Shown here piece after piece: positions 16,575-23,371 of a stretch of 61,734 nt of DNA (the stretch's first letter is position 1; every line of letters begins with the position of its first letter). The DNA comes from Lachnospiraceae bacterium. Its GTDB lineage: Bacteria; Bacillota; Clostridia; Lachnospirales; Lachnospiraceae. Below the pieces are notes generated by a model. It worked only from the letters and a program-made list of their open reading frames with translations, was not told the DNA's origin and did no database searches. The translations under genes were made by a program, and so were the position numbers. The stretch spans positions 1 to 61,734 of the forward strand of contig JAFZSQ010000097.1 in NCBI GenBank assembly GCA_017619295.1, given 5' to 3'.

Positions 16575-16613
16575 TGTAAAAAATAAAAATATAAAAAATT
16601 TTAAATAAACCTA

Positions 16614-16642
16614 TTGACATAGTAGGCGAATGGTGTTAAAGT
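16614..16642 (+). promoter_or_regulatory. Promoter of the sulfur amino-acid operon
   Basis: TTGACA (16614-16619), a 17-nt spacer and TAAAGT (16637-16642) with an extended TG at 16634-16635. Transcription would start near 16649, giving a leader of about 260 nt. GTAAC ... GTTAC (16641-16655) just downstream could be a small operator. Confidence 0.75.
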
Positions 16643-16683
16643 AACAACCAAGTTACAAAAATCTTCAAAGGAGAGACACGAAA

Positions 16684-16791
16684 ATGTTTAACTTAAGAAA
16701 CAGCAAATTAAATATGTGTATGTGTTGTTACATGTTAAACTCCCGGGCATTTGAAATGGCTGGTGTTTGTTCGTGTCAACGACACACCTGA
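16684..16791 (+). CDS. Cys/Met-rich leader peptide of the mcc-met operon
   Basis: A 35-codon open frame, ATG to TGA, with a strong AAAGGAG (16667-16673) 10 nt upstream. The peptide has five Cys and four internal Met, including the run MCMCCYM at codons 11-17 and VCSC at codons 28-31. It lies between the operon promoter and an intrinsic terminator, and the downstream genes make or import Cys and Met. The codons just after the run (TTA AAC TCC CGG GCA) form one strand of an alternative RNA pairing. This is the layout of a leader peptide controlling transcription attenuation by ribosome stalling when charged tRNA-Cys or tRNA-Met is low; stalling itself is inferred. Confidence 0.82.
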   Translation: MFNLRNSKLNMCMCCYMLNSRAFEMAGVCSCQRHT

Positions 16792-16845
16792 AGAAATAAA
16801 GCCATTACGAGACATTGAAGTCACATGCCCGGTACCTGAGTTTAA
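16686..16845 (+). promoter_or_regulatory. Alternative pairing elements of the attenuator
   Basis: Four elements can pair. GTTTAAC (16686-16692) matches GTTAAAC (16734-16740). TTAAACTC (16735-16742) plus CCGGGCAT (16743-16750) match GAGTTTAA (16838-16845) and ATGCCCGG (16825-16832), giving 16 bp with one 5-nt bulge: the antiterminator. AATGGCT (16755-16761) pairs with AGCCATT (16800-16806), with GGTGT/ACACC inside it. The antiterminator strand at 16825-16845 is the same sequence that builds the terminator, so the two cannot coexist. A ribosome stalled on MCMCCYM would keep the first pair apart and favour antitermination (inference). Confidence 0.8.
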
Positions 16846-16862
16846 GGTCCCGGGCTTTTTTT
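16827..16862 (+). terminator. Leader terminator (attenuator) of the mcc-met operon
   Basis: Stem GCCCGG-T-ACCT (16827-16837) with AGGT-C-CCGGGC (16845-16855), loop GAGTTTA, then seven T (16856-16862). It lies 47 bp before the first structural gene and would stop transcription unless the antiterminator forms. Confidence 0.93.
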
Positions 16863-16909: not shown

Positions 16910-18061
16910 ATGAGTTACGCAATCGAATCACTACTTATACATGGTGGAAAGGACATGGACAAGGAAACCGGAGCGGTAAACATTCCGGTATATCAAACAT
17001 CAACTTACAAACAACAGGAACTTGGAGTTAACTCCGGATGGGAGTATTCCAGAACAGGAAATCCCACAAGAGATGCTCTTGAAAAACTAATAGCAGATTT
17101 GGAGGGCGGAAAATATGGACTTGCATTTGCATCAGGCCTGGCAGCGATCCACACAGTTCTTTCACTTTTTAAAGCGGGTGACAAGCTGGTTGTTTCAGAC
17201 AACATTTACGGAGGTACATTCAGAGTACTTCAAAATGTATTTGAGCCACTCGGAATTCTATATGAAATAGTTGATACCACAAAGCCTTCAAACGTCGAGG
17301 CGGCAATCGATGATTCGGTAAAAGCCATTTACATCGAAACCCCGGCAAATCCTTTACTCAGTGTCACAGACATTGAAGAGGTATCAAAGATAGCTAAAAA
17401 GCATAACAAACTTCTGATTGTAGATAATACCTTCTTAACCCCCTACTTACAGCAGCCTCTAAAGCTCGGAGCCGACATTGTAATCCATAGCGGAACCAAG
17501 TACCTTGGCGGACACAGTGATGTAGTATCCGGGCTGGTTGTTGTAAAAGAAAAGGAAATCGCAGACAGGCTTTACTACCTTCAGAATGCAATAGGCGGAA
17601 TCCTCGCTCCCTGGGACAGCTTCCTTATGATAAGAGGAATCAAAACTCTTGGAGTAAGAATGGACAGACATCAGGAAAACGCCATAAAGATAGCCAACTG
17701 GCTTAAGGACAGCGGATATGTCAGCAAGGTTTACTACCCCGGTCTTGAAAGCGACCCCGGATACGAAACCCAGAAGAAGCAGGCCAAAGGTCCCGGAGCA
17801 ATGATATCCTTCGTTCTTAAAGAAGAATATGACTACAAAGCATTCTTCAAAAACATCAAATTGATTACATTGGCCGAGAGCCTTGGAGGTGTGGAGTCTT
17901 TGGTATGCCATCCCGCAACCATGACACATGCAGCAATCCCCAAGGACATAAGAGAGAAAGTCGGAATAGTAGATGAACTTATAAGACTTTCGGTAGGCAT
18001 TGAGAATGTAGACGACTTAATAGAGGATTTGGAAAAAGCCATAAAGTCCTCCAAAAAGTAG
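16910..18061 (+). CDS. mccB: Cystathionine gamma-lyase/synthase-type PLP enzyme
   Basis: A 383-residue member of the Cys/Met metabolism PLP family. The PLP-binding Lys lies in HSGTKYLGGHSD (about residue 197), and YSRTGNPTRDALE and ETPANPLLSV are typical family blocks. Enzymes of this group are cystathionine gamma-lyases, gamma-synthases or O-acetylhomoserine sulfhydrylases, and sequence motifs alone do not fully separate them. The downstream CBS-type gene favours reverse transsulfuration (MccB, cystathionine to cysteine). AAAGAGAGAAA precedes the ATG. First structural gene behind the attenuator. Confidence 0.87.
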   Translation: MSYAIESLLIHGGKDMDKETGAVNIPVYQTSTYKQQELGVNSGWEYSRTGNPTRDALEKLIADLEGGKYGLAFASGLAAIHTVLSLFKAGDKLVVSDNIYGGTFRVLQNVFEPLGILYEIVDTTKPSNVEAAIDDSVKAIYIETPANPLLSVTDIEEVSKIAKKHNKLLIVDNTFLTPYLQQPLKLGADIVIHSGTKYLGGHSDVVSGLVVVKEKEIADRLYYLQNAIGGILAPWDSFLMIRGIKTLGVRMDRHQENAIKIANWLKDSGYVSKVYYPGLESDPGYETQKKQAKGPGAMISFVLKEEYDYKAFFKNIKLITLAESLGGVESLVCHPATMTHAAIPKDIREKVGIVDELIRLSVGIENVDDLIEDLEKAIKSSKK

Positions 18062-18091
18062 CAAACGAGTCGGGAAAGGAGAGTGATGATA

Positions 18092-19006
18092 ATGGATGTA
18101 TATATGGACATCCACGATATGATCGGAAACACCCCGGTGATAAAGCTTAATAACCTTGGTGTAAGGAAAGGAGTTAACTTATACGCAAAACTCGAACTCA
18201 TGAATCCGGCAGGAAGTGTGAAGGACAGAGTTGGAGCTTACATGATAAAAGACGCTGAGGAAAGAGGAATTTTAAAACCGGGCGGAACAATCGTTGATGC
18301 AACAGCGGGAAACACAGGAATAGGAATTGCGCTGGCAGCACTTAATAAAGGATACAGAATTATTTTTACCGTACCCGAGAAGTTTTCGGTGGAGAAGCAG
18401 AAACTGATGGCAGCACTCGGAGCGGAAATAGTTCACACTCCCAGAGAGGAAGGAATGCTTGGTGCCGACAGAAAGGCGGACGAGATTATAGCAGGAATTC
18501 CCGGAGCAATATCCCTTAAGCAATTCAACAACCCCGCAAACCCCAGAGCCCACTACGAGACAACGGGCCCTGAAATCTACACCCAGCTTGACGGAGAAAT
18601 TGATTACTTCGTAGCAGGAGCCGGAAGCGGCGGAACATTCTCCGGAGTGGTGAAATACCTGAAAGAGAAGAAGCCTGAAATACAGGGAGTTCTGGCAGAT
18701 CCCATAGGCTCAATAATAGGCGGAGGTGAACACAAGGATTACGACATTGAAGGAATAGGAAATGACTTTATAGCGGACACCATGGATATTAACCTGGTAG
18801 ATACGGTAATAAAGATATCCGATAAGGAAGCATTCGAAACCGTAAAGCTCTTGGCTAAAAAGGAAGGCATAATCGCAGGATCCTCATCCGGAGCCGCATT
18901 GGCCGCATCGCTTAAGCTTGCAGAGCGAATTGAGAAAGGAAACATAGTAACACTTTTCCCCGACAGAGGCGACCGCTATATAAGCAAGGGACTGTTTGAT
19001 GAGTAA
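18092..19006 (+). CDS. mccA: O-acetylserine-dependent cystathionine beta-synthase/cysteine synthase
   Basis: About 304 residues of the PLP fold-type II cysteine synthase family. The PLP Lys is in NPAGSVKDRV, the substrate loop reads TAGNTGIGIAL, and GAGSGGTFSGV is the phosphate-binding loop. The pattern (PEKFSVEKQKLM, QFNNPANPRAHYETTGPEIY) is closer to MccA/CBS than to CysK, pairing it with mccB for homocysteine-to-cysteine conversion. AAAGGAG ends at 18081; ATG 18092 (10 nt) was chosen, with ATG 18086 and GTG 18083 as close alternatives. It overlaps metN by 8 nt. Confidence 0.88.
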   Translation: MDVYMDIHDMIGNTPVIKLNNLGVRKGVNLYAKLELMNPAGSVKDRVGAYMIKDAEERGILKPGGTIVDATAGNTGIGIALAALNKGYRIIFTVPEKFSVEKQKLMAALGAEIVHTPREEGMLGADRKADEIIAGIPGAISLKQFNNPANPRAHYETTGPEIYTQLDGEIDYFVAGAGSGGTFSGVVKYLKEKKPEIQGVLADPIGSIIGGGEHKDYDIEGIGNDFIADTMDINLVDTVIKISDKEAFETVKLLAKKEGIIAGSSSGAALAASLKLAERIEKGNIVTLFPDRGDRYISKGLFDE

Positions 19007-20003
19007 CGTATTTGAACTTGAGCATGTATCCAAAACATATGTGAATGAAGGCAAGGAATTTGAAGCCTTAAAGGATGTCAACCTCTCAGTTAAAGAGGGA
19101 GAGATATTCGGAATAATCGGAATGAGCGGAGCCGGTAAATCTACTCTCGTAAGAACCTTAAACAGACTTGAGAAAGTAAATGAAGGAAGCGTTAAGTTCT
19201 ACGACAGAGACCTGGCAGACCTTAAACCCTCAGAGCTAAGAAATGTAAGACACTCCATTTCGATGATTTTCCAAAGCTTCAATCTTGTTAATCAGAGGAG
19301 CGTCATTGACAACGTTATGCAACCCCTTCGAATTGCGAAGGTTCCACGAAAAGAGCGAAATAAAATTGCCTTGGAGATGCTTAAAGTAGTGGGACTTGAG
19401 GAGAAGAAAAATGCTTTTCCCGCAAGATTATCCGGAGGACAAAGACAAAGGGTTGCCATAGCAAGAGCACTGGCGTCTGACCCTAAAGTTCTTCTTTGTG
19501 ACGAAGCAACAAGTGCCCTTGATCCTAAGATTACTGCTGAGATTCTTGATCTTTTAAAAGAGATAAACAAGGACAGGAAGCTTACCATAGTAATCATTAC
19601 ACACGAAATGGCAGTGGTCGAAAAGATTTGTGACAGAGTAGCGATTATCGATGACGGAAGACTTGAGGAAGTGGGAGAGGTGAAAGAGGTATTCAGAAAT
19701 CCCAAATCCAAAGCCGCAAGGAAGCTGGTATTCCCCAGTAACCCTTACGACCCTTCCAAACCGGAATCAAGACTCATAAGAATAGTCTTTGACGGCCTGG
19801 CAGCAAGCGAACCATTTATAGCAAGTCTGGTTGAAAAAACCGGAAAGAAAGTCAATATTCTAAGCGCCAATACCAAAAGCGTCGGCGGAATAGGATACGG
19901 ACAGATGGTCCTGGAACTTCCTGAATCGGGAGAGGATCAAAAAATAATAATCGACTTCTTTAAAGAAGGTGGATTAAGTGTATCGGAGGTGACGAGAGAA
20001 TGA
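18999..20003 (+). CDS. metN: Methionine ABC transporter, ATP-binding protein
   Basis: A 334-residue ABC ATPase. Walker A GMSGAGKST, signature LSGGQRQRVAIARAL, Walker B VLLCDEATSALDP and the H-loop ITHEM are all present. The C-terminal 75 residues form a NIL/ACT-like domain (IRIVFDGLAASEPF ... VLELPESGE), which in MetN binds methionine and inhibits transport. The start overlaps the mccA stop and its own end overlaps metI (ATGA). With MetI and MetQ it imports methionine or related sulfur compounds. Confidence 0.95.
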   Translation: MSNVFELEHVSKTYVNEGKEFEALKDVNLSVKEGEIFGIIGMSGAGKSTLVRTLNRLEKVNEGSVKFYDRDLADLKPSELRNVRHSISMIFQSFNLVNQRSVIDNVMQPLRIAKVPRKERNKIALEMLKVVGLEEKKNAFPARLSGGQRQRVAIARALASDPKVLLCDEATSALDPKITAEILDLLKEINKDRKLTIVIITHEMAVVEKICDRVAIIDDGRLEEVGEVKEVFRNPKSKAARKLVFPSNPYDPSKPESRLIRIVFDGLAASEPFIASLVEKTGKKVNILSANTKSVGGIGYGQMVLELPESGEDQKIIIDFFKEGGLSVSEVTRE

Positions 20004-20653
20004 GCGAATATATAGTTGACGCCATTAAAATGGGTATTCTCGAAACCATAGAAATGACATTTTTCTCGGCCCTGATATCTTATATTTTAGGTCTCCCACT
20101 GGGTGTCGTCCTATACGCCACTTCAAAGGGAAGGCTTCTGGAAAACAAACCGGTTAACCTGGTTCTTGGAACGATAGTAAACATTTTAAGATCGCTTCCT
20201 TTCCTGATTCTTCTGGTTTTGTTGATTCCGTTTACAAGGCTTGTGACGGGTTCTTCCATAGGAACAGTCGCATCCATTGTCCCTTTGACTGTCGGGACAA
20301 TTCCGATTGTGGCACGAATGGTAGAGTCATCTCTCTGCGAAGTGTCACCGGGAATAATTGAGGCAGCAACCGCCATGGGAGCATCCCCCTTATACACAAT
20401 ATTACATTTCATTCTTCCTGAAGCGACCCCATCACTGTTGTTGGGCGGAGCTATCAATGTGGCAACTGTGTTGGGATACTCCGCAATGGCGGGAGTAATC
20501 GGAGGCGGCGGCCTTGGGGCCATAGCACTCCAGTACGGATACTACAGATACCAGAAAGAGGTTCTGTGGACCACAGTTACACTTCTTGTAATCATGGTAA
20601 TGCTGATTCAGGAAGCCGGCGAATTAATCGCCAAGAAAAAAAGAAAAATATAA
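20000..20653 (+). CDS. metI: Methionine ABC transporter, permease
   Basis: A 217-residue permease with five to six membrane segments and the EAA-type loop (EAATAMGASPLYTILHFILP) that contacts MetN. Length and sequence are typical of MetI. It overlaps metN by 4 nt and is followed by metQ 34 nt later. Confidence 0.95.
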   Translation: MSEYIVDAIKMGILETIEMTFFSALISYILGLPLGVVLYATSKGRLLENKPVNLVLGTIVNILRSLPFLILLVLLIPFTRLVTGSSIGTVASIVPLTVGTIPIVARMVESSLCEVSPGIIEAATAMGASPLYTILHFILPEATPSLLLGGAINVATVLGYSAMAGVIGGGGLGAIALQYGYYRYQKEVLWTTVTLLVIMVMLIQEAGELIAKKKRKI

Positions 20654-20687: not shown

Positions 20688-21581
20688 ATGAAAAAAAGAA
20701 TTTTATCAATCTTATTAACAGGTGCACTTGTAGCGGCATTTGCAGGATGCGGAAGTGCACAGACCAAAGCAGAGGATAACAAGAACATTGCAGAAACTGA
20801 AACAGCAACAGCAGCAGCAACAGAGGAAGCTCCCGCTGAAGAAGCAACCGAAAGCGTAACCATCAAAGTTGGTGCCAACATCACACCTCACTCAGAGATT
20901 TTGCAGGAAGCTAAGCCTTTACTTGAGGCAAAGGGAATCACACTTGAAATCGTACAGCTTGAAGATTCAATCACACCCAACACCGGCGTAATCGAGGGAA
21001 GCCTTGATGCCAACTACTTCCAGCACGTTCCTTACCTTGAGCAGTTCAACAAGGAAAACGGTTCAGATCTCGTTTCCATCGGTGCTGTTCACTACGAGCC
21101 CTTCGGAATCTATGCAGGAAAAACCACAGACCTCTCAGCACTTCCTGACGGCGCACTTGTAGCAGTTCCCAACAACGTAACAAACGAAGCAAGAGCACTT
21201 CTTCTCCTTGCACAGGAAGGTCTCCTTACATTAAAGGATGATGCCGGAATCAATGCAACAGTTGAAGATATTGTTGAGAATCCCAAGAATATTCAGTTTA
21301 AGGAACTTGCTCCCGAGCAGCTTGTGGCAGCACTTCCCGATGTAGAAGTTGCAGTTATCAACGGTAACTACGCAATCGAAGGTGGATTACATGTAAGCCA
21401 GGCTCTGGCAGTTGAAGCAAACGACGGACTTGCAGCCAAGACTTATGGAAACATCGTTGCAACATCTCCCGATAAGGCTGATGACGCAGCACTCAAGACA
21501 CTTGTTGAGGTTCTTCAGGGACCTGAAATCAAGGCATTCATTGAAGGAAAATATGACGGAGCAGTAGTTCCGCTTAACTAA
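20688..21581 (+). CDS. metQ: Methionine-binding lipoprotein (NLPA family)
   Basis: A 297-residue lipoprotein. A signal peptide ends in a lipobox (AFAG-C21), followed by a low-complexity Ala/Glu/Thr linker (residues 24-55), then the NLPA/MetQ binding fold (VGANITPHSEILQEAKPLLE ... DANYFQHVPYLEQFN). The protein is anchored outside the membrane and delivers L- or D-methionine to MetI-MetN. AGAGGAGAAAA precedes the ATG. Confidence 0.94.
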   Translation: MKKRILSILLTGALVAAFAGCGSAQTKAEDNKNIAETETATAAATEEAPAEEATESVTIKVGANITPHSEILQEAKPLLEAKGITLEIVQLEDSITPNTGVIEGSLDANYFQHVPYLEQFNKENGSDLVSIGAVHYEPFGIYAGKTTDLSALPDGALVAVPNNVTNEARALLLLAQEGLLTLKDDAGINATVEDIVENPKNIQFKELAPEQLVAALPDVEVAVINGNYAIEGGLHVSQALAVEANDGLAAKTYGNIVATSPDKADDAALKTLVEVLQGPEIKAFIEGKYDGAVVPLN

Positions 21582-21592
21582 GGAGAAGAGAA

Positions 21593-22753
21593 ATGATTGG
21601 ATTCGAGTACTACAATCCGGCGAAAATTGTGTTCGGAGAAAACAGTGAAAAGAAAATTAAAGACCTCCTTAAGGCATATGAAGTCAAATCCCTTCTTCTG
21701 GTTTACAGCGGAGATTTCATAAAGACCCTCGGAATATACAATGTAATAGAAGATGCGGTAAAAACACTTGGTATCTCCTTCATAGAAAACGGGAACGTAG
21801 TTCCGAACCCCAGCATCGATCTTGTAAGAGACCTGGTAAAACAGGGTAAAGAAAACAAAACAGACTTTGTTTTGGCAGTCGGTGGAGGAAGCTCCATCGA
21901 CACCGCCAAGGCGGTGGCTCTCGGTATTCCATACGATGGTGATGTCTGGGATTTCTTCGAAAAAGGTGTGTCACCTAAGGAAGTTCTTCCTGTAGGCGTT
22001 ATTGCAACAACAGCCTCCAGCGGATCCGAAACTTCAAACTGTGCAATTCTTTCAAGCGGAGAATGGAAGCTTGGTTTTGAGGACGACAGAATTATCCCTA
22101 AGTTTGCAATCATGAATCCCAAGTTTACAGTGGGTCTTCCCGCATATCAGACTTTCGTGGGAATCGCAGATGTATTATCCCACTTACTTGAGAGATATTT
22201 CTCAGATGAGAAGTACTCAGACACAACGGATTACCTGATTGAAGGAGCTATAAGAGCCCTTCTTGTAAACGCAGACAGACTTATAAAGAACCCTAAAGAT
22301 GTAAACGCAAGAGGTGAAATTCAATGGCTTGCAAGCGTAGCTCACAACAACTTCCTTGACGCAGGAAGACGAGCTGATTGGGGATCACACAGAATAGAAC
22401 ATGAACTGTCAGCACAGTATAACATCACACACGGCGAAGGAATGGCAGTTGTCACAATCGCCTGGACCAAGTATATGGCCGAAGTTAAACCCTGGAGACT
22501 TGCACTTCTTTCAAGCAGAGTGTTTGGAGCAGATTCTTATGATTATTCAGAGAAAGAAAGAGCCTATATACTTTCCGAGAAGTTAACCGAGTTCTTTAAG
22601 AAGCTTGGTCTTAAGACCACACTTACAGAGCTTGGCATAGATGACAAGGACTTTGAAACAATGGCGGGGAGAGCCACAAGAAACGGCACAGTGGGACACT
22701 ACGAGCCCCTTGATGCCAAAGCATTTACAGAAATTCTAAAACTTGCATTATAA
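21593..22753 (+). CDS. Iron-containing alcohol dehydrogenase (butanol dehydrogenase-like)
   Basis: A 386-residue group III alcohol dehydrogenase. The NAD(P)-binding stretch is AVGGGSSIDTAKAVALG, and metal-ligand regions are visible around the D-x3-H pattern (GIADVLSHLLERYF), IEHELSAQYNITHGEGMAV and the C-terminal TRNGTVGH. The family reduces aldehydes such as butanal. Its place inside a Cys/Met operon is odd; it may act on an aldehyde produced by sulfur amino-acid breakdown, for example methional or 2-oxobutanoate-derived products (inference). It begins 11 nt after metQ. Confidence 0.87.
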   Translation: MIGFEYYNPAKIVFGENSEKKIKDLLKAYEVKSLLLVYSGDFIKTLGIYNVIEDAVKTLGISFIENGNVVPNPSIDLVRDLVKQGKENKTDFVLAVGGGSSIDTAKAVALGIPYDGDVWDFFEKGVSPKEVLPVGVIATTASSGSETSNCAILSSGEWKLGFEDDRIIPKFAIMNPKFTVGLPAYQTFVGIADVLSHLLERYFSDEKYSDTTDYLIEGAIRALLVNADRLIKNPKDVNARGEIQWLASVAHNNFLDAGRRADWGSHRIEHELSAQYNITHGEGMAVVTIAWTKYMAEVKPWRLALLSSRVFGADSYDYSEKERAYILSEKLTEFFKKLGLKTTLTELGIDDKDFETMAGRATRNGTVGHYEPLDAKAFTEILKLAL

Positions 22754-22775
22754 ACGGTACGGAGGAGAAAAAGAG

Positions 22776-23330
22776 ATGGCAAGAGTACATTTAAAACAAC
22801 CTGATGAGTTAACAGGCGAAGCAAAGAAGGCTTATGACGAGCTTAACGCAAAAGGCAAAATCACAAACATGAAGCTTGTAATGCTTCAGGATTATGGAAC
22901 ATATAAGGCATTTATGGGCTGGTATGATTCATGGGGAAGCCTTGTGGACGTAGTTGGACTTCGTGCAGCAACAATTTATGCTCACTCAGTTTCAACAACC
23001 AACGGATGCCAGTTATGCTCATTGTTCTTTATCAGTGACCTTAAGGAGCTTGGCCTTGACCCCAACAACTTTGAGACAACCGAAAACGAGGCTTTACTTC
23101 AGCAGCTTGGTCAGCAGATTGTAAAGGATCCCACCAAGGTGTCAGATGAGCTTCTGGATGGTCTCAGAAAGTTCTATACCGATGAGCAGATAATTGTAAT
23201 TGTTGGCTTCGGCGCTCAGATGCAGGCAACAAACAACTTCAACTCAGTACTTGGGGTTGATGTGGATGCAAGACTTCTTCCTCTCAAGGATCAGTTCAAA
23301 CCTGCAACATGGAGAGAAGCGATTAAATAA
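22776..23330 (+). CDS. Carboxymuconolactone decarboxylase/AhpD-like protein
   Basis: A 184-residue all-helical protein with CQLC (about residue 76) in VSTTNGCQLCSLFFIS, the CxxC arrangement of AhpD/CMD proteins that perform alkylhydroperoxidase or disulfide-exchange reactions. GGAGGAG (22761-22767) lies 8 nt before the chosen ATG; an upstream TTG at 22743 overlaps the alcohol dehydrogenase gene. Last gene of the mcc-met operon, ending at a terminator. A role in thiol redox linked to the sulfur pathway is plausible. Confidence 0.78.
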   Translation: MARVHLKQPDELTGEAKKAYDELNAKGKITNMKLVMLQDYGTYKAFMGWYDSWGSLVDVVGLRAATIYAHSVSTTNGCQLCSLFFISDLKELGLDPNNFETTENEALLQQLGQQIVKDPTKVSDELLDGLRKFYTDEQIIVIVGFGAQMQATNNFNSVLGVDVDARLLPLKDQFKPATWREAIK

Positions 23331-23343
23331 ATCTGTCCTAAAT

Positions 23344-23371
23344 AAAGGGAACCTTCGGGTTCCTTTTATTT
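23344..23371 (+). terminator. Intrinsic terminator of the mcc-met operon
   Basis: GGAACC (23348-23353), TTCG tetraloop, GGTTCC (23358-23363), extended by A/T pairs, then TTTTATTTT. Confidence 0.9.

Follow-up and report, generated by a model that had tools for sequence, protein, structure and literature searches.

What regulates the mccB-cysK-metNIQ operon of a Lachnospiraceae bacterium, in front of which a short reading frame rich in cysteine and methionine codons is followed by a transcription terminator? The usual view of Firmicutes is that amino acids are sensed through T-boxes and riboswitches, and T-box and SAM (S-box) riboswitches control amino-acid and sulfur genes in this phylum through the choice between a terminator and an antiterminator. 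These usual tools are available to this bacterium, since its genome has seven T-box matches, three of them above cut-off and all on contigs without the two leaders described below, and a single SAM riboswitch, ahead of metK and likewise on a contig without either leader. The T-boxes precede leuS, trpE, thrS, valS and ileS, and one more precedes what we read as the gene of a substrate-binding protein. At the two sulfur operons of this genome that carry the leader, neither a T-box nor a SAM riboswitch was found. In the window, by which we mean the whole stretch analysed (61,734 nt, forward strand of contig JAFZSQ010000097.1, assembly GCA_017619295.1), no Rfam family matched at gathering score, the T-box (RF00230) and SAM riboswitch (RF00162) covariance models included. 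When eight leader loci were compared with Rfam at E values up to 5, just one tRNA and one microRNA model appeared, both off the leader, and the SAM riboswitch did not.

A sequence-only reading of the window had proposed translation-dependent attenuation, and this proposal is largely supported, since the Cys/Met frame, the terminator and an antiterminator exclusive of it recur with compensatory change in many genera. From the comparative and folding evidence, we put the probability at about 85% that the leader is a ribosome-mediated transcription attenuator that turns the operon on when cysteine is short. The same switch stands ahead of similar genes in many Clostridia and most likely activates them, too, under cysteine shortage. 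As that reading had it, the signal would be charged tRNA-Cys and/or tRNA-Met.

Anatomy of the leader and its operon

The leader peptide frame (16684-16788, plus strand, as are all features below) comprises 35 codons with the translation MFNLRNSKLNMCMCCYMLNSRAFEMAGVCSCQRHT*, and has relatives in other genomes. It contains five Cys codons (12, 14, 15, 29 and 31) and four internal Met codons (11, 13, 17 and 25), and stands behind the ribosome binding site AAAGGAGAG (16667-16675). Codon counts in relatives and the folds mark Met11-Cys12-Met13-Cys14-Cys15-Tyr16-Met17 (16714-16734) as candidate sensor codons. The coding 5' strand of the antiterminator, TTAAACTCCCGGGCAT (16735-16750), is supported by covariation in relatives; it pairs with 16825-16832 and 16838-16845 in 16 of 16 Watson-Crick pairs, leaving a 5-nt bulge (16833-16837) in the 3' strand (16825-16845), which is supported by sequence, covariation and fold and shares the 5' arm of the terminator. 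This intrinsic terminator (16827-16862), seen in the fold, by our own terminator script and in covariation, consists of a hairpin at 16827-16855 and a T7 tract ending at 16862, with a score of -17.6 kcal/mol in our script; a simple consensus scan did not list it because the stem is interrupted. The frame with its ribosome site, the five Cys and four internal Met codons in the run MCMCCYM, the terminator and the bulged 16-bp antiterminator using its 5' arm are thus all present in the window as the earlier reading had described them. Finally, the minimum-energy fold and outer-stem complementarity in relatives point to a sequestering (anti-antiterminator) hairpin at 16721-16786, in which 16721-16734 would pair with 16772-16786 around an inner part at 16736-16769, so that the sensor codon segment from 16721 onward doubles as its 5' arm. 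The fold of the leader region was matched by 2 of 200 dinucleotide shuffles (z -2.7).

Upstream lies a sigma-70-type promoter-like site, TTGACA-17-TAAAGT with a TG ahead of the -10 box (16614-16642), which scores 10/12, sites of this class as such being no more frequent there than in shuffles (15 vs 14.1). The imperfect palindrome CCTATTGACATAGTAGG (16610-16626) spans its -35 box and is the probable operator of a repressor, which we guess to be a protein of the Rrf2/CymR type. In the collection of relatives described below, the motif CTATTGAC..TA[GT]G occurs upstream in 113 of 163 entries vs 6 of 2821 control windows; it is absent, as written, from 50 of the 163, and 17 further entries have a GATAA..TTATC-type repeat in its place. 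Since the predicted repressor site overlaps the -35 box, the operon is probably doubly controlled, with this operator adding a second regulatory layer. The operator-like motif was also seen upstream of two leaderless metY genes (L255 and L256).

The first gene behind the leader is mccB-like (16910-18061) and encodes a PLP enzyme of Cys/Met metabolism nearest to the cystathionine gamma-lyase and homocysteine desulfhydrase models, under their curated cut-offs. It is followed by a cysK/mccA-like member of the cysteine synthase family (18083-19006; TIGR01136, above cut-off), a metN-like ABC ATPase (18996-20003; TIGR02314 as top match, under cut-off), the metI permease (20000-20653; NF008049, above cut-off) and a metQ/NlpA-like lipoprotein (20688-21581; TIGR00363, under cut-off). 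Last come a gene resembling iron alcohol dehydrogenases and one with weak similarity to peroxidase-related enzymes (21593-23330; family scores under cut-off). The operon apparently stops at 23330, and a terminator-like site then stands at 23340-23371.

Relatives of the leader in Clostridia and beyond

A second copy of the leader stands ahead of metY in the same genome (79% identity over 91 nt), and a congener has copies ahead of mccB and cysK as well as a divergent one. A profile of four peptides run across 299 family genomes gave something at E<=1 in 140 of them, many surely by chance; many of the top matches have the common core MCCRMxNSRAxxMAG. A 70-nt core model, sequence-only and made from 16 cores, matched 49 of 397 family genomes and 45 of 334 genera at E<=0.01, the other 348 genomes being without a match at this threshold; class-wide, it matched 12 of 391 genomes at E<=1e-4, the genome of the window among them. 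The many family genomes without a match weigh against the attenuator reading, given that 147 of 150 have a MetY relative at E<=1e-80. An exact pattern was found in at least 118 stretches of named records, some of which overlap with the family-genome set. Its carriers, among the matches listed, are mostly metagenome bins and include Lachnospiraceae, Ruminococcaceae, Oscillospiraceae, Saccharofermentans, Christensenella, Blautia, Faecalibacterium, Clostridium porci and Anaerovibrio, the last a member of the Negativicutes and represented by A. lipolyticus DSM 3074, a cultured carrier. One copy with metY (L186) lies in the record of an uncultured Eggerthellaceae bacterium, which we take to belong to an actinobacterial family; it reflects either transfer or mis-binning.

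From 171 places collected, 164 entries were retained, one (G074) having no anchor by rule and six being duplicates. Peptide-profile matches that lacked the core motif (L018 and L022-L035) were judged to be chance matches and excluded, and in one entry (G168) the anchor is off by one codon. The exact pattern supplied 113 of the 164 entries, in which TGTCGAATG and most of CTCYCRGRCA are therefore fixed by choice; the remaining 51 were found without it, and in these the letters were free to vary.

Conservation of the reading frame and its codons

In 152 of 158 testable entries a ribosome site and a start lie in frame ahead of the core, vs 7 and 9 in the two alternative frames, which suggests that the leader frame is translated. 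The peptides have a median of 39 codons, 14 of them before the anchor Cys. The earlier reading had suggested comparing relatives for conserved Cys and Met codons, and these were indeed found: the six positions ahead of the anchor hold 210 Cys and 229 Met codons, i.e., 439 of 984 codons in the 164 entries, and other long frames at the pattern loci contain 1.5% Cys and 2.4% Met. Cys occupies the anchor in 161 of 164 entries, partly by choice of the pattern, and the preceding codon in 115 of 164; among the 51 pattern-free entries the corresponding numbers are 48 and 43. Two observations count against the preferred reading: in 29 of the 164 entries just one Cys occurs among the seven codons that end at the anchor, and a Met two codons past the anchor equals the Cys in conservation, although a stall there should not antiterminate.

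Pairing and covariation of the alternative structures

Terminators were located in each entry from the hairpin and T tract, with no use of the leader. A terminator was found 60-230 nt beyond the anchor in 150 of 164 entries; 10 entries gave none (in three of them the stretch ended), four more lay outside this range, and at least two of the picks (L122 and L206) appear mistaken. Between the leader 10-mer and the 5' arm of its own terminator, 9.4 of 10 positions form Watson-Crick pairs vs 5.7 for shuffled ones, and among non-consensus leaders 23 of 45 fit their own partner at every position vs 1% after swapping. At one antiterminator pair, all 15 entries with A have U opposite and all 116 with G have C (Fisher p 5e-20); at another there are 9 A-U, 115 G-C, 5 G-U and 2 unpaired combinations (p 1e-10). 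These contingency counts cover 131 of 164 entries, the rest being without the GGGAG anchor, the CTCYC start or an in-range terminator; the window copy is itself among the uncounted entries. The figures of 15 and 116 are sequences and not independent events, and many of the A-U copies are alike (e.g. L112, L117, L171, L187 and L223) and may share a single origin.

Compensatory changes in both stems, which the earlier reading had also recommended looking for, are evident. In an alignment of 57 rows (A5), 10 of 15 antiterminator pairs change on both sides, with 43 doubly changed cells vs 11.0 in shuffles, and sliding the partners drops the pairing from 90% to 25-46%. For the terminator, there are 10 doubly changed cells vs 2.6. 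As the rows of this alignment were hand-picked from the 164 entries to take in variants, the pair counts are not those of a random sample. A second antiterminator helix, AUGGC/GCCAU, covaries less (A-U in 7 of 14, G meeting U in 5 of 78; p 2e-4); 92 entries were countable here, with the window copy off-register in the alignment.

The sequestering structure is supported by complementarity and not by covariation. For the segment around the Cys codons and CGAATG, a partner lies close downstream that, compared with shuffles, falls in the best 5% in 54 of 161 entries vs 11 expected (mean z -1.03; +0.17 for the control region). Taken as a whole, the hairpin region folds only mildly better than its shuffles (mean z -0.62), ranking in the best 5% in 22 of 161 entries, and the inner and outer parts of the hairpin are paired in 81% and 71% of the cells, respectively; covariation in the alignment of relatives was no higher in this hairpin than in shuffles. 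The earlier reading had assigned the sequestering role to another pair, 16686-16692 with 16734-16740. Its letters, GTTTAAC and GTTAAAC, are indeed present and are kept in the mccB copy of the congener; the pair is not conserved generally. As a general part of the leader it was discarded, the metY copy of the same genome and the cysK copy of the congener reading GTTTAAC in both segments. On these comparisons, the Cys-codon hairpin (16721-16734 with 16772-16786) is the more likely of the two to take the sequestering role.

A model of the switch

Equilibrium folding of the full-length window leader with no ribosome gave a terminator probability of 0.98. When the RNA ended at 16846, so that the 3' arm of the terminator was unmade, the antiterminator had a probability of 0.96, again with no ribosome. 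A stalled ribosome was assumed to cover the RNA up to 12 nt beyond the first base of its A-site codon. With Cys12, Met13 or Cys14 in the A site, the antiterminator probability was 0.94, 0.76 and 0.21, respectively, and with Cys15, Tyr16 or Met17 it was 0.01 or less; the low values for Cys14 and Cys15 speak against the cysteine reading.

The same kind of model was run on 127 relatives; in that analysis the mask applied to the window leader was two bases longer. With no ribosome, the antiterminator was favoured in these RNAs (mean terminator probability 0.20, above 0.5 in 25 of 127); a stall brought the mean to 0.12, lowering the probability in 33 and raising it in 12. The equilibrium model did not reproduce default termination in the 127 relatives, and most of them failed to switch. 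As the antiterminator is favoured there when no ribosome is present, default termination must rest on the kinetics of folding or on the moving ribosome, and we assume that in the relatives the order of events during transcription, rather than equilibrium, decides.

We propose the following sequence of events. When charged tRNA-Cys, and probably tRNA-Met too, is ample, the ribosome would clear the codon run, and the Cys-codon segment and the 5' strand of the antiterminator would then fold into the closed hairpin; with this hairpin closed, the terminator would form and RNA polymerase would halt at about 16862. When cysteine is scarce, the ribosome would stop early in the run and mask the 5' arm of the hairpin, leaving CTCCCGGGCA free to pair with TGCCCGG. 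Once this pairing is made, the terminator could not form, and mccB-cysK-metNIQ would be transcribed.

Weighing other explanations

One alternative is that methionine is the main signal, with ribosomes stalling at the Met codons and the Cys codons serving the pairing of the RNA. Met is as frequent as Cys ahead of the anchor (229 vs 210 of 984 codons), relatives of metY and metQ are the most frequent first genes (88 and 36 of 156), and in the window model stalling with Met13 in the A site gives an antiterminator probability of 0.76. The Cys codons themselves argue against this idea, given their frequency at the anchor and the codon before it, which holds also in the entries collected free of the pattern, and the existence of runs with an extra Cys (CCCRM). 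Furthermore, TGC replaces TGT in 37 of 210 Cys codons, and the Cys codon is therefore not one fixed RNA word. We consider methionine as the main signal unlikely, although it is the strongest of the competing ideas. An arrest peptide, which would stall the ribosome itself, perhaps by binding a metabolite, was also considered, as the core CRMxNSRAxxMAG resembles a conserved peptide. The residues upstream of the run (positions -8 to -4) are variable, however, and NSRA becomes NSQA or SRT (Arg to Gln, Ala to Thr) in step with the partner RNA strand, so that RNA pairing accounts for this part of the core and it is the RNA, not the peptide, that is conserved there. On both grounds the arrest-peptide reading was rejected as very improbable.

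The leader could instead be an RNA that binds a metabolite or protein (a riboswitch or the target of an RNA-binding repressor), the frame being incidental. Strong nucleotide conservation at TGTCGAATG and CTCCCGGGCA, which in some rows is partly a product of the pattern, would agree with this. However, the ribosome site and frame are kept in 152 of 158 entries, an insert found inside the run is three bases long, and neither the window nor the eight leader loci gave an Rfam match on the leader, all of which makes a binding RNA highly unlikely. Scarcely more probable is regulation by the promoter repressor alone, in which the leader terminator would merely set a fixed basal level: the operator-like motif is frequent and occurs ahead of leaderless metY genes as well, but a fixed terminator would have no need of a Cys-rich frame and a covarying antiterminator, and the motif as written is missing in 50 of 163 entries. 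The preferred reading remains the ribosome-mediated attenuator responding to cysteine.

Genes behind the leader

A readable first gene 3' of the leader was available in 156 entries, and in 132 of them it is a relative of metY, metQ, mccB or cysK (88, 36, 6 and 2, respectively; other, 24). The metY tally counts one gene twice, as L136 has two cores, and 87 names are distinct. The 24 other genes were classed through representatives (ten representatives were scanned, eight from this group): by Pfam they include solute-binding proteins and permeases of ABC transporters for polar amino acids, in groups of 8 and 5, GST-like proteins (a group of 3) and M20 peptidases (a group of 2), along with a cyclase, a LysR regulator and a LanC-like protein; one scanned representative was without a Pfam match. 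The divergent copy in the congener (L073) stands ahead of a LysR-type regulator gene, and the cassette may thus control a regulator too.

The MetY proteins behind the leader are nearly free of Cys and, the initiator aside, of Met (C 0.07%, M 0.31%; 87 proteins). A comparison was made with MetY from regions without the core motif, of which 16 of 20 fetched (L245-L264) were readable, the other four having no complete frame; 19 of the 20 genomes have no match to the model, one (G120) has a weak match elsewhere, and one readable region taken as leaderless (L260) carries a leader-like word far upstream. These proteins are equally poor (C 0.10%, M 0.31%), so the scarcity belongs to the enzyme and not to the leader, and it was dropped as a leader-specific trait. 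A low content of Cys and Met fits a protein that is needed during shortage of sulfur amino acids.

As the same type of cassette stands ahead of metY, metQ, cysK and other genes elsewhere, we tentatively suggest a broader role, which we hold to be possible rather than probable: a gene-hopping cassette that serves many Clostridia and some Negativicutes as a general switch for Cys and Met starvation, replacing T-boxes and S-boxes, with a gate coded by position. Early stalls at Met or Cys codons would open the operon and stalls at Cys15, Tyr16 or Met17 would leave it closed; because the gate depends on codon position, a shortage of sulfur amino acids could be told from a general slowing of translation.

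Relation to known attenuators

No publication describing this leader, or a Cys/Met leader family across Clostridia, was found in the open-access library searched. T-boxes and S-boxes lack a leader peptide, and their Rfam models fail to match here. The mechanism is nevertheless of a known kind, as leader-peptide attenuators of his and ilv genes are known in Firmicutes. Closest in logic is uORFC-8-2 (PMC8632094), described ahead of cysS in Rhodobacterales, where a short uORF has two adjacent Cys codons, in most cases codons 14-15. Like the present leader as proposed, it has a stem over the Cys codons, a U run suiting an intrinsic terminator and inferred ribosome stalling. As described there, uORFC-8-2 concerns only cysS in one alphaproteobacterial order, whereas the leaders here stand mostly before genes of sulfur assimilation and transport in Clostridia and Negativicutes (132 of 156 first genes are not cysS, and the hosts differ), and they have a compensatory antiterminator and an upstream operator-like site; the two systems were compared by description only. 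Candidate cys leaders have been reported in Actinobacteria, the mycobacterial ones without a conserved terminator hairpin (PMC1262725), and the polycysteine case of M. smegmatis is termed translation attenuation (PMC13236596). Such leaders resemble ours in having a Cys-rich peptide ahead of sulfur genes, and ours differ in having a ribosome site and an intrinsic terminator. The polycysteine sORFs of mycobacteria are reportedly leaderless, to go by the title of a 2020 work by Canestrari.

Within the Firmicutes, Rli60 (PMC5864092) is an attenuator of the Listeria ilv-leu operon with a 13-codon peptide, joined to the repressor CodY; like the present leader as proposed, it combines a leader peptide, a terminator and an antiterminator with a repressor, and it differs in serving branched-chain amino acids and in its 13-codon length. 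In Bacillus, histidine leader peptides of hisS/hisZ replace a T-box, and attenuators move among genes (PMC2965389). The likeness, drawn by description only, lies in a leader peptide where a T-box would be expected and in an attenuator that hops between genes; the amino acid and the genes are different.

If the proposed attenuation is correct, many rumen and gut Clostridia would set their supply of sulfur amino acids by translating a Cys-rich peptide, which would bear on how these organisms produce cysteine, methionine and sulfide and trade them with one another. The result would also be an RNA family that had no match in Rfam here; it would explain the tiny frames ahead of metY and metQ, and allow a direct test of whether a single leader reads two charged tRNAs.

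Terminal cysteines of the leader peptides

Many leader peptides terminate in Arg-Cys-stop (CGATGTTGA), as in L009, L012 and L017. The final residue is Cys in 40 of 152 leader peptides, and a Cys lies among the last three in 67 of 152; this terminal Cys may act as a further sensor or contribute to a small hairpin.
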